From contig NZ_JAKZEY010000003.1 of NCBI RefSeq assembly GCF_022808955.1, positions 1 to 54,571 on the forward strand: DNA of 54,571 bases. Direction: 5' to 3'. Every line of letters starts with the position of its first letter. Within the stretch, counting starts at the first letter, position 1. This DNA is from Anaerococcus sp. AGMB09787. Its GTDB lineage: Bacteria; Bacillota; Clostridia; Tissierellales; Peptoniphilaceae. Made by a program: the position numbers and the translations under genes. Below the pieces are notes generated by a model. That model was not told the origin of the DNA, made no database searches, and saw only the letters and a program-made list of their open reading frames with translations. Positions 37,657 through 41,506 of the stretch are shown one piece after another.

Positions 37657-38472
37657 CTAGCTAAGGGGACTAAAGCCAAATTTTTTCAAAATCTCCGAAG
37701 ACTTCTCCCCTTGTAAGAAATCTAGAAATTTTTGGCCCTGATCTTTCTTTTTACTATCAGCAAGGAGTCCACCTGGATAGATAATCTTGTTATCAAGTAT
37801 AGAATCATCAGCCTCATCGACTACTTCTAAGTCAAATATCTTTGCATCTGTTGCATAGATTATTCCAGCATCCACAAGGCCTTCATCAACCCAAGAAGTA
37901 ACTTCCCTTACATTAGATCCGAGGCTTAGTTTATCTTTGATGTCTTCATAAATTCCCAGGTTATTCAGGATTTCTAGAGAATATTGGCCTACTGGTACAT
38001 CTTCGTTTCCTATAGCGAGGCTCTTTACCTTACCACTTACTATGTCTTCAAATTTTGAGATTTTATTTTTATTGCCTTCTCCTACGACTAGAGTCACTTT
38101 ATTTTCAAGCAAGTCTCTTCTTGAATCTTTTTCTATAGAAACACTACCCTTATAGGCTTCATTGGATGGGTCTAGCTCATTCATTTGCTTTTGTGCCGCT
38201 GAAATAAAGACATCACACTCTGCCCCCTCTATGATTTGACTTTTTAAGGTTCCTGATGAATCAAAGTTATATAAAAGGTTTATTTCAGGATTTTCCTTCT
38301 CATAACTTATCTTAATTTCTTCTAAAACATCAGTCATGGATGCAGCCGCAAATACTACTAGGTCTTCTTTTTGATTGACTTTAACTTCCCCATTTTCCTT
38401 CCCCCCACAAGCTCTAAGACCTGCAATTAATGAAAGTGAAGCTAAAGCTAAAATAATTTTTTGAAATTTCAT
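37657..38472 (-). CDS. modA: Molybdate-binding lipoprotein
   Basis: A 271-residue extracellular binding protein. The signal peptide ends in a slightly unusual lipobox, GLRAC, with C22 as lipid attachment site (Arg at -2 is uncommon). The mature protein begins DLVVFAAASMTDVLEEI, the canonical ModA oxyanion start, followed by FDSSGTLKSQI and ending DFLQGEKSSEILKKFGFSPLS, as in molybdate rather than sulfate binders. It is first of modABC with its own promoter. Confidence 0.93.
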   Translation of the reverse strand: MKFQKIILALASLSLIAGLRACGGKENGEVKVNQKEDLVVFAAASMTDVLEEIKISYEKENPEINLLYNFDSSGTLKSQIIEGAECDVFISAAQKQMNELDPSNEAYKGSVSIEKDSRRDLLENKVTLVVGEGNKNKISKFEDIVSGKVKSLAIGNEDVPVGQYSLEILNNLGIYEDIKDKLSLGSNVREVTSWVDEGLVDAGIIYATDAKIFDLEVVDEADDSILDNKIIYPGGLLADSKKKDQGQKFLDFLQGEKSSEILKKFGFSPLS

Positions 38473-38521
38473 AAGAATAAACCCTCCTCATTAAACTTTA
38501 TTAAGCCATCAATATTATTCA

Positions 38522-38550
38522 ACTATAGCATATTTAGTGAATTTTTTCAA
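38522..38550 (-). promoter_or_regulatory. Promoter of modABC
   Basis: Minus-strand TTGAAA (38545-38550), 17-nt spacer, TATAGT (38522-38527), about 50 bp before modA and right after the guaD stop. No ModE-type box is obvious. Confidence 0.65.
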
Positions 38551-38558
38551 AATAAGAA

Positions 38559-39830
38559 CTAAAATATTTCCTTACCACTAACCCATTTATGTCTAACATG
38601 CCTAGGCTCTGACATATAAATAGTCCTCTCCAGTCTCTCCTCAATACTTAGATTTTCATTCTTATAATCAGCATCATCAATTACCAGTGCATCAAATTCG
38701 TAACCCTTATCTAAGGATCCCACCTTACCAAAAAACTTGCCACCACCAAGAGTTGCTAGGTAGAAGCCCTCTTCTATGCTAAGAGGCTTACATCTTTGAT
38801 CAATATACCTCCAGTACATCTTAGATACTTGGATGGCATCTGATACTTGTCTAAAAATCGATAGGTGACTGCCTGCTGCTATATCACTGCCTAGACCTAT
38901 ATTTTGTCCTTGGTCAAGATACTTTCTAATAGGCGCTATACCCGAAGCTAGGTTGAGATTTGAATTTGGGCAGTGGGCAATAAAGACTCCCCTATCCTTA
39001 AGGAGCCTTTGCTCTCTCTCATCTGACCAAACACAATGGGCCATTATAGTTTTAGTTAAACTTCCAAATAACTTATACCTATCATAGCTATCTCCATAAC
39101 ACTTGGCCCACGGACATAATTCTTTAACCCATTCGATTTCACCTGGATTTTCTGATAGGTGGGATTGGACAGGAAGGCAATATTCCTCGACCATACCTCC
39201 AAGACCCTCCATCAATTCATCACTACATGATGGGGTAAACCTAGGAGTTATAATAGGAAAAGTCCTTTTGTAGGTATCTTTTATAGAATCTAGCCAGGCC
39301 CTAGTGGCACTTAGGCTCTCCTTAGCATCATCTTCCTCTAAATCTTCTATGGCATTCCTATCCATATTAACTTTTCCAACGTAGCTAATAAGACCAGACT
39401 TCTCTAATAGATTCATCAATAGGATAGTAGAATCTACGTGGAGGCTAGCGAAGACACAGGCTCTAGTAGTTGAACTATACTTAAGGTCCTCTACAAATCT
39501 TTCATAGGCCCTGCTGGCATAGCTAAGGTCCTTATACTTAGACTCTTCTGGGAAGGTGTAGGTATTTAACCAGTCCAAGAGTTCTAAATCCATCCCCATA
39601 CCCCTAAAAGTATATTGGGGAGCATGGACATGAAGGTCGATTAGACCAGGCAAAATTAGCTTACCTGAGTAATCATAAAGCTTAAAATCCTTGTAGGATT
39701 CAGGGATTTTATCATACACACCTCTAGAATATCCATCTTCACATACCAGGTACTTATCCTTACCTGTTATCAACTCATCCTTATTTTTGCTATAGCAAAT
39801 ATCTCCTTTAATTATAAAATTATAAGTCAT
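38559..39830 (-). CDS. guaD: Guanine deaminase
   Basis: A 423-residue zinc amidohydrolase converting guanine to xanthine and ammonia. Metal and substrate motifs: PGLIDLHVHAPQYTFRGMGMD, the QSHLSENPGEIEWV helix, IMAHCVWSDE, FIAHCPNSNLNLASG and GLGSDIAAGSH, all matching the GuaD family. A longer frame begins at 39860, but AAGGAGGG stands 7 bp before the ATG at 39830, so the shorter start is right and leaves an 11-bp gap after the permease. Coupling with a purine permease under a guanine-type riboswitch makes a guanine import and deamination unit. Confidence 0.94.
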   Translation of the reverse strand: MTYNFIIKGDICYSKNKDELITGKDKYLVCEDGYSRGVYDKIPESYKDFKLYDYSGKLILPGLIDLHVHAPQYTFRGMGMDLELLDWLNTYTFPEESKYKDLSYASRAYERFVEDLKYSSTTRACVFASLHVDSTILLMNLLEKSGLISYVGKVNMDRNAIEDLEEDDAKESLSATRAWLDSIKDTYKRTFPIITPRFTPSCSDELMEGLGGMVEEYCLPVQSHLSENPGEIEWVKELCPWAKCYGDSYDRYKLFGSLTKTIMAHCVWSDEREQRLLKDRGVFIAHCPNSNLNLASGIAPIRKYLDQGQNIGLGSDIAAGSHLSIFRQVSDAIQVSKMYWRYIDQRCKPLSIEEGFYLATLGGGKFFGKVGSLDKGYEFDALVIDDADYKNENLSIEERLERTIYMSEPRHVRHKWVSGKEIF

Positions 39831-39841
39831 CTTATCCCTCC

Positions 39842-41275
39842 TTAACCTGTAGTTATACAAAAATATCTTAACACAAAGATCATGGCAATTATAGCTGTAA
39901 GTGGACTAATTTCTTTTACCTTGCCAGAAAATGCTTTCAATAAACAATAGCTTATAAGCCCCATAGCAATACCATTTGCTATAGAATATGTAAATGGCAT
40001 AAAGGTTATAGTTATAAATGCTGGTATCACATCAGTAGGATTAGAAAAATCTACGTCTTTAATATTTGACATCATAAGGATTCCAACATAAATCAAAGCT
40101 GGTGCTGTAGCTGCCAAGGGTATTATATTTACAAATGGAGCAAATACCAATGCCAATAAAAATAACATAGCTGTGGTAAATGAAGTTAGTCCGCTTCTAC
40201 CTCCCTCTGCAATTCCAGCACTCGACTCTACAACTGTCGTAACTGTGGAAGTTCCTATCAAGGCGCCAATACTTGTAGCGATAGCATCCGACATCAAAGC
40301 CTTTCTTAAGTTTTTAACATTTCCATTTTCATCTAACATATTTCCTTGCTTAGAAGCTCCGAGTAAGGTTCCTAAAGAATCAAACATATGAACCAAAGAA
40401 AAACTAATTACAAGCATGAAAATCGTAAAGAGATTTCTAAAAATATCTCCCCCACTAAACAAGGATCTAAAATCCAGGTTAAAAAATGATACATCAAAGA
40501 AATCTTTAAATTTAACCTCAATATTAAAGTCAAAAGCCTCTATATTAGTAAGACCTAAAGGAATTCCTATAATAGTTGTAATAACTATACCAATTAGGAT
40601 AGATCCCCTAATATTCTTATAGTTTAGAACTCCGATTATTATTAGTCCAATAAAAGCTATCAGGGCAGACTTAACTAAGGTAGTATCTATATTTGGATCA
40701 GACCATTTTGAAAAGTCGACCATAGCTAGCAAAGTTGCGTCATTACCTACAATTATGCCTGCACTCTTTAAACCTATTATTGTTATGAACAAGCCAATAC
40801 CTGGAGTCATAGCATTTTTAATTGATGTGGGTATAGCATCTATGATGGCTTCCCTAAGTCCTATTGCTGTCAAAAATATAAATAATATTCCTGAAATAAA
40901 TACAATAACAAGAGCTTGGTTATAAGTATAACCCATCCCCAAGATTACAGTATAAGCTAAAAAAGCACTAAGTCCCATTCCTGGAGCCAAGGCAAATGGT
41001 AGCTTTGCATATATGGATACCAAAAAAGTTCCTACAAAGGCAGCCAGGCATGTTCCTATAAAAGAAGCATTGGCTACTTTTTCTGCCATTGCCCCATCAC
41101 CCATAATCGCATAGGGTTCAGAAATTGTAAGTGGTATTATTATAAGTATGTAAGCCATGGTTATAAATGTCGTAATACCTGCTATAATTTCTGTCCTAGA
41201 GCTAGTCTTACTTGTCATCCCAAATAAATTTTTCATTAATCCCTGTTGTTTTTCACTAAAAATTTTATCTTTCAT
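39842..41275 (-). CDS. pbuG: AzgA/PbuG-type guanine-hypoxanthine permease
   Basis: A 477-residue membrane transporter of the AzgA branch of NCS2-like purine permeases, with about 12 to 14 hydrophobic segments. Marks are TEIIAGITTFITMAYILIIIP, ALAPGMGLSAFLAYTV, MTPGIGLFITIIGLKSAGI, and GTSTVTTVVESSAGIAEGGRSG near the middle-to-end, which is highly diagnostic. It brings in guanine or hypoxanthine. It heads an operon with guaD. Expression is likely under double control: a palindromic operator on the promoter -10 (41473-41484) and a purine riboswitch with terminator between 41309 and 41445. Confidence 0.93.
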   Translation of the reverse strand: MKDKIFSEKQQGLMKNLFGMTSKTSSRTEIIAGITTFITMAYILIIIPLTISEPYAIMGDGAMAEKVANASFIGTCLAAFVGTFLVSIYAKLPFALAPGMGLSAFLAYTVILGMGYTYNQALVIVFISGILFIFLTAIGLREAIIDAIPTSIKNAMTPGIGLFITIIGLKSAGIIVGNDATLLAMVDFSKWSDPNIDTTLVKSALIAFIGLIIIGVLNYKNIRGSILIGIVITTIIGIPLGLTNIEAFDFNIEVKFKDFFDVSFFNLDFRSLFSGGDIFRNLFTIFMLVISFSLVHMFDSLGTLLGASKQGNMLDENGNVKNLRKALMSDAIATSIGALIGTSTVTTVVESSAGIAEGGRSGLTSFTTAMLFLLALVFAPFVNIIPLAATAPALIYVGILMMSNIKDVDFSNPTDVIPAFITITFMPFTYSIANGIAMGLISYCLLKAFSGKVKEISPLTAIIAMIFVLRYFCITTG

Positions 41276-41308: not shown

Positions 41309-41402
41309 AAAAAACCTACAATCTAGCTAATTCATATACTTCCAAAACTACAGAGATACAGGCATAATAAGTATATGTTTTAATTTATAGCTAGACTATA
41401 GG
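41309..41402 (-). terminator. Riboswitch-controlled intrinsic terminator ahead of pbuG
   Basis: On the coding strand the 5' arm (41382-41402, containing TCTAGCTA) pairs with the 3' arm AATTAGCTAGATTGTAGG (41315-41332), followed by six U (41309-41314). Between them a second hairpin, CATATACTT with AAGTATATG, brings the arms together. The 5' arm is the P3-right/J3-1/P1-right part of the aptamer, so the two folds exclude each other. Confidence 0.7.
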
Positions 41403-41445
41403 TAGTCAATAGATACGTCCACCCCTTATGTGAACTTATATAAAT
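41383..41445 (-). promoter_or_regulatory. Guanine-type purine riboswitch aptamer
   Basis: A three-way junction fits the purine riboswitch plan. P1 pairs ATTTATA (41439-41445) with TATAAAT (41383-41389). J1/2 is TAA. P2 pairs GTTCAC with GTGGAC around a 7-nt loop ATAAGGG that contains the GG used in loop kissing. J2/3 is GTATCTA, matching the conserved U-N-U-C-U-A core. P3 (GACT/AGTC with one extra mismatched step) has a loop with CC. The C at 41390 (minus strand), just before P1, takes the place of C74, which pairs with guanine, hypoxanthine or xanthine. P3 is shorter than usual and the residue before C74 is G instead of A, so ligand preference may differ. Confidence 0.72.
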
Positions 41446-41472: not shown

Positions 41473-41484
41473 GTAATATATTAC
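41473..41484. promoter_or_regulatory. Palindromic site, copy 4 (pbuG promoter)
   Basis: GTAATATATTAC, a perfect palindrome differing by one base from the copies at 32641 and 32754, overlapping the pbuG -10. Confidence 0.6.
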
Positions 41485-41506
41485 TATATAGATTTTATTC
41501 TGTTAA
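41478..41506 (-). promoter_or_regulatory. Promoter of pbuG-guaD
   Basis: Minus-strand TTAACA (41501-41506), exact 17-nt spacer, TAATAT (41478-41483). Transcription would begin about 25 nt ahead of the aptamer. The rest of the 41276-41632 gap is leader RNA plus the terminator of the next operon. Confidence 0.6.

Follow-up and report, generated by a model that had tools for sequence, protein, structure and literature searches.

The 54,571-nt stretch of Anaerococcus sp. AGMB09787 DNA analyzed here over its full length (the window) carries on its (-) strand a purine riboswitch whose pocket is of guanine type and which, judging from its sequence, is probably joined in ON orientation to an intrinsic terminator. 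The riboswitch heads a permease-guaD operon that adjoins a purine-degradation cluster. An apparent guanine-type ON switch had been proposed at this place by the first-pass annotation, and the proposal is supported by the Rfam match of the aptamer, by the mutually exclusive pairing of aptamer and terminator, by the recurrence of this arrangement with different sequences in relatives, and by the gene context.

Rfam covariance-model search, which had been suggested as a check, matches the purine riboswitch family RF00167 at 41463-41368 (-) with 41.2 bits; a score at or above the gathering score of 37 bits places a sequence in the class. The E-value is 0.0021 in the window search and 1.8e-5 in the genome search, where this aptamer is the sole RF00167 match found in its own genome (E up to 1). 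Its score is the third from the bottom among 22 family matches. The P1-P2-P3 core occupies 41445-41383, as had been annotated. P1 pairs 41445-41439 with 41389-41383 through seven pairs, all A-U. Sequence reading and the Rfam alignment agree on the elements reported earlier, namely a UAA J1/2 (41438-41436), the loop-loop GG of L2 (near 41425-41424) and CC of a short L3 (41402-41401), and, within J3/1 (41390..41391), C74, the guanine-type base, at 41390, next to G73 (usually A) at 41391. J2/3 is GUAUCUAU (41409..41416), with U51 at 41411; at 41409 it has U53, where C is usual. For the window, the Rfam alignment instead shows position 53 as a gap and lets P3 begin with UU; the 8-nt J2/3 with U53 is our own reading, which agrees with the MAFFT alignment and with the Rfam alignments of leaders L050 and L012.

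A likely sigma-70 promoter, TTAACA-N17-TAATAT, lies at 41478..41506 (-). It is called by consensus match only; the stretch holds 7 such promoter-like matches, against a mean of 3.4 in shuffles; in the near relative L010 its -35 element is TTGACA. A terminator-like site at 41594-41562 parts the riboswitch transcript from the upstream MOSC gene. To note, a GAAAACGTT-like box, which we take to resemble a cre site from its consensus, follows the promoter closely in several leaders, the best examples being in L012, 32 nt ahead of P1, and in L007, 42 nt ahead of it; such a box before the aptamer is not convincing in the window itself.

The terminator comprises a 16-bp outer stem, 41403-41388 pairing with 41329-41314, and a 9-bp inner stem, 41377-41369 pairing with 41341-41333, all on the (-) strand, and closes with a U6 tract at 41314-41309. 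The U6 terminator ending at 41309 had been recognized before, and is larger than described. Its 5' arm had been equated with the right half of the aptamer, 41382-41402: the overlap holds, while the extent does not, since the arm spans 41403-41388 and takes in L3, P3', J3/1 and just the first two bases of P1'. The 41450-41309 (-) segment folds into this long hairpin ending in U6 with an MFE of -34.9 kcal/mol (z -3.21; 1 of 200 shuffles did equally well), as compared to -18.6 when the aptamer is enforced. In the classic ON case, the pbuE adenine riboswitch of Bacillus subtilis, the 5' arm of the terminator falls within P3', J3/1 and P1', and this is also its place in the window. As the arm shares its bases with the aptamer, the two folds cannot coexist, and bound ligand should prevent termination, which would make this an ON switch of the pbuE type.

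In the proposed mechanism, the weak all-A-U P1 would fail to hold without ligand; the 3' arm 41329-41314 would then pair with L3, P3' and J3/1, and transcription would stop at U6. Binding of guanine (or of hypoxanthine, and possibly of xanthine) would lock the L3, P3' and J3/1 bases in the aptamer; the terminator could then not close, and permease-guaD would be transcribed. Guanine would in this way induce its own uptake and its deamination into the purine-degradation pathway, if the direction in vivo is the one that we infer. The terminator exceeds the aptamer fold in stability by 16 kcal/mol, and the ligand may fail to outrun it; control would presumably be kinetic.

The first gene of the operon (39842..41275, (-)) encodes a purine permease of the Xan_ur_permease family (PF00860, E 3.1e-39), which we take to be PbuG/AzgA-like; an NCBIfam search of this protein returned no match, and none was found for it in viral contigs. 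The second, guaD (38559..39860, (-)), overlaps the permease end and encodes a guanine deaminase that matches TIGR02967 with 347 bits, under the curated cut-off of 375.4. Downstream, between guaD and modA, a promoter-like site with a TG extension is seen at 38522-38550, and no terminator-like site was found in 38400-38600. Around the two genes lie modABC, moaA, moaCB, the MOSC gene, xdhA, ygfK, ssnA and a pbuX-type permease, as well as ygeW, ygeY, arcC, diaminopropionate ammonia-lyase and selD; the cluster encodes a xanthine dehydrogenase and putative urate-pathway genes. It resembles the reductive urate-degradation clusters of anaerobes, reported in the accessible text of PMC12507026 for Anaerococcus prevotii among others; a term search of the main text of that paper did not find the word riboswitch. 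Induction of purine uptake and deamination by their substrate would be the natural logic for such a cluster.

RF00167 matches are present in 9 of the 31 genus genomes and 22 of the 130 family genomes. All 14 family permeases at 63-100% identity, the window's included, are preceded by a purine-riboswitch leader: 12 were identified by RF00167, that of G106 by a separate Rfam search, and that of G107 by eye only, its aptamer being partly N and without Rfam match. The gene following the permease is guaD in 13 of these 14 cases, again counting the window, and selD in a MAG of the same genus (G019). In that MAG, the permease match stops at residue 461 and selD follows (L129, 7570-8484), which may reflect a rearrangement or a misassembly. 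Fold reading reveals an aptamer-overlapping terminator in eight of the 14 leaders (L001, L008, L009, L025, L026, L027/L050, L051, L052), although in L026 a longer stem further downstream outscored the overlapping one. The other six (L002-L007, all in the genus) have the aptamer without a clear terminator, just stems reaching into the gene start. In the permease tree (midpoint root, three forks open), the eight family ON leaders are close together and the six terminator-less ones form one fully supported group.

Beyond these, no riboswitch leader was seen for the 16 next permeases with an upstream stretch that was read (46-51% identity, L083-L098; the L083 stretch is still coding), while the G091 permease (44%, leader L021) has a riboswitch for which no terminator was found. 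Other family leaders carry autonomous terminators (L016-L020, L022, L023). In L022 (G088), the purine riboswitch immediately precedes a guanine deaminase homologue (44% identity to the window's). Outside the family, a Hespellia (Lachnospiraceae) MAG leader, L013, displays a 59.7-bit aptamer with the same overlap before permease-guaD-xdhA. In total, the overlap layout recurs with different letters in eight leaders besides the window.

A strict rule was applied to this layout: any autonomous terminator had to stay at -9 or above, and an aptamer-overlapping one had to reach -15 or lower. It holds for 7 of 25 family-side leaders. L008 passes with the stretch limited to 130 nt, a longer stretch failing through a stem far downstream; L052, counted above from its fold reading, fails the scripted rule because its 102-nt hairpin exceeds the script limit; L102 and L108 do not pass. 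L028 (G066) just fails, with -19.0 for the overlapping and -9.1 for the autonomous structure, and possibly has an aptamer-overlapping terminator; the product of its gene exhibits a lipoprotein-like start and has no NCBIfam match at 1e-10. Among 70 class leaders (the 30 best matches and 40 hand-picked among the matches listed, not a random sample), the rule holds soundly for L159 alone. This leader carries U74, lies before a partial adenine deaminase gene, and is the known adenine ON type; the rule thus recovers a known ON switch. In two further class leaders, L154 and L182, the overlapping stems are better by 8.6 and 9.4 kcal, yet autonomous terminators of -15.1 and -11.8 are present. In this class sample, not drawn at random, the overlap layout is rare among guanine-type aptamers.

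The pairing of the 26 nt before the U tract with the leader's own aptamer was also compared with 2000 shuffles. In nine chosen leaders (the eight family ones with the overlap, and L013), of which L001 and L009 are near-copies, the value was reached by 4, 10, 92, 26, 56, 31, 2, 17 and 7 of the 2000. With the best T-run taken for each leader, the 0.05 level is attained by 9/9 chosen, 4/15 other family-side and 17/53 class leaders possessing a T-run, and the 0.01 level by 7/9, 3/15 and 10/53, respectively. The test alone is not specific, as 21 of the 68 other leaders also reach 0.05, and the ON argument therefore rests on the layout and not on the shuffles.

Turning to the ligand, the contact positions named in the accessible text of PMC9295807 are U22, U51 and C74, and all three carry the guanine-type base in the window (41438, 41411 and 41390). 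The C53/A73 junction consensus of guanine-I is absent, with G73 and either U53 or a gap; this lowers typicality more than it affects the class, neither base being a named ligand contact in that text. C74 takes the place of the U74 of adenine riboswitches. The window has neither the one-nucleotide J2/3 insertion and the J3/1 insertion of guanine-II nor the U51G with insertions of xanthine-II: it retains U51, and its two junctions are free of insertions. Guanine or hypoxanthine is the favored candidate ligand, and xanthine would be possible.

A short P3 and the G before C74 had been suggested earlier as a possible mark of a ligand variant, an idea that proves weak. In a MAFFT alignment of 91 aptamers (a set without L102, L108 and L114, at contig ends, and L052, partly N), G73 occurs in 13, including four class leaders (L125, L126, L176, L179) whose terminators are autonomous and do not overlap the aptamer, and is too common to indicate a changed ligand reliably. 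Position 53 is more informative, since C53 takes part in the A23-G46-C53 base triple at the pocket's upper end, according to the part of PMC3764141 that was available, and U53 occurs in 6 of the 91 aptamers, all six in this ON clade. A switch turned on by some other purine (xanthine, urate, 2'-deoxyguanosine or a nucleoside), its pocket changed at position 53 and by G73, could also draw on the xanthine dehydrogenase and putative urate-pathway genes of the cluster, on the xanthine response of a guanine-type riboswitch in C. difficile (accessible text of PMC11477304), and on the listing of 2'-dG-I (RF01510) at 35.7 bits by clan competition in a short stretch. This score is far under the RF01510 gathering score of 51 bits, however, and the guanine-sensor identity of U22, U51 and C74, the lack of the J2/3 insertion and U51G of xanthine-II, and the guanine deaminase encoded in the operon make another purine rather unlikely.

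The proposed guanine-type ON switch contains a further element, absent from the first-pass annotation: a conserved 25-nt loop, UUAUGCCUGUAUCUCUGUAGUUUUG (41343..41367, (-)), borne by the inner hairpin of the terminator (arms 41369..41377 and 41333..41341). Pattern searches and leader comparison found it nearly invariant in six genomes of two genera, within a covarying stem. In five distinct leaders, 46 of 50 inner-stem cells pair and 9 of 10 positions exhibit compensatory change, as compared to 91 of 200 cells for exchanged arms and 9/35 to 20/40 for slid registers, the sample being small and the arms aligned by hand. A near-invariant loop on a stem that is rewritten and still pairs suggests that it is the sequence that is constrained in the loop, and chiefly the pairing in the stem. 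The final base of the loop is U and not G in L008, and the loop is lacking in L025 and L026, the latter retaining UUAUG only.

A 23-nt version of the loop (A or G at one place) is found exactly in 6 of 249 order genomes, all six times in these leaders. With up to 3 mismatches it is found in 10 of 249, the additional four copies (3 mismatches each) being inside long open frames, a distribution that does not fit a dispersed repeat. In the class sample of 391 genomes, with up to 2 mismatches, the sole copy is the window's own. A shorter 17-nt pattern with up to 2 mismatches hits 32 places, and among six of these read beyond the true ones no purine leader was seen. Several roles of the loop were considered and rejected. 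As a leader peptide, it would read AUG CCU GUA UCU CUG UAG, the GUG of the G106 variant being synonymous; translation was discarded because no ribosome-binding site was seen upstream in five leaders. Pairing of the loop with the aptamer is no better than that of shuffled loops in 5/5 leaders, 328-445 of 500 shuffles reaching the value. Rfam models up to E 10 gave only sub-gathering, chance-like overlaps (two miRNA models and a leader model, E 3.7-6.8). Tentatively, the platform may have a second input, an unknown protein or small molecule that would recognize the loop and be combined with guanine sensing in one terminator.

The loop also bears on the view that the aptamer has decayed, so that the terminator works while ligand goes unsensed, or that another factor acting on the loop sets antitermination. 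The loop is indeed conserved far better than its surrounding stem, and the weak Rfam score, position 53 and G73 could be signs of decay; but relatives with the same layout and the same loop (L051, L050) keep A73 and score 44.0 and 47.8 bits, and the window itself keeps P1, the pocket bases and the loop-loop GG/CC, which makes decay improbable. An ordinary OFF riboswitch with an incidental terminator overlap, for which one could invoke the four C. difficile guanine riboswitches, all OFF and two of them before permeases (accessible text of PMC11477304), the autonomous terminators of the seven family leaders cited above, and some aptamer pairing before a U tract that leaders with such terminators also show, is very improbable given that no autonomous terminator in the window comes near the overlapping one in strength (-8.4 versus -28.3) and that the layout recurs with different letters in the eight other leaders.

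The guanine-type ON switch proposed here shares with guanine-I riboswitches (RF00167, xpt type) the three-way junction, U22/U51/C74, a J2/3 without insertion and a 2-nt J3/1, and differs from them by its ON instead of OFF layout, U53 (or gap), G73, short L3 and catabolic permease-guaD operon. With pbuE and L159 it has in common the placement of the terminator 5' arm, but it possesses C74 instead of U74, and its long terminator bears a conserved loop on the inner hairpin. The 2'-dG-I riboswitch of Mesoplasma florum (RF01510) has a similar L2 and short L3 (ACCUAU), whereas the window is below its gathering score and has a J2/3 of guanine type. Guanine-II, xanthine-II and 2'-dG-III, as described in the accessible text of PMC9295807, share the scaffold, are predicted ON and occur in Firmicutes, and xanthine-II precedes purine-degradation genes; the window is devoid of their J2/3 or J3/1 insertions and of U51G. 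The earlier statement that guanine and xanthine sensors usually switch genes off is fair, yet passes over the ON variants sensing guanine, xanthine and 2'-dG already predicted in print in that paper. A term search of its main text, outside which the figures lie, did not find the words deaminase, permease or transporter. In the open literature, outside which most subscription papers lie, no description was found of an ON switch with a guanine-I pocket before permease-guaD, nor, searching by topic and not by its letters, of the conserved loop. As a kind, ON guanine-sensing variants are thus already predicted, and the window would differ from them by its guanine-I pocket, its permease-guaD operon and its conserved loop.

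If this reading is true, a guanine-type riboswitch would act as the substrate-induced ON switch of a catabolic operon, the reverse of its usual sparing role, and would link anaerobic purine degradation to control by RNA. In the conserved terminator loop there is a definite puzzle that lends itself to testing. Since leaders with autonomous terminators (OFF-like), leaders of ON type and leaders devoid of a terminator all occur in one family, the change of direction should be traceable by evolution and by experiment.
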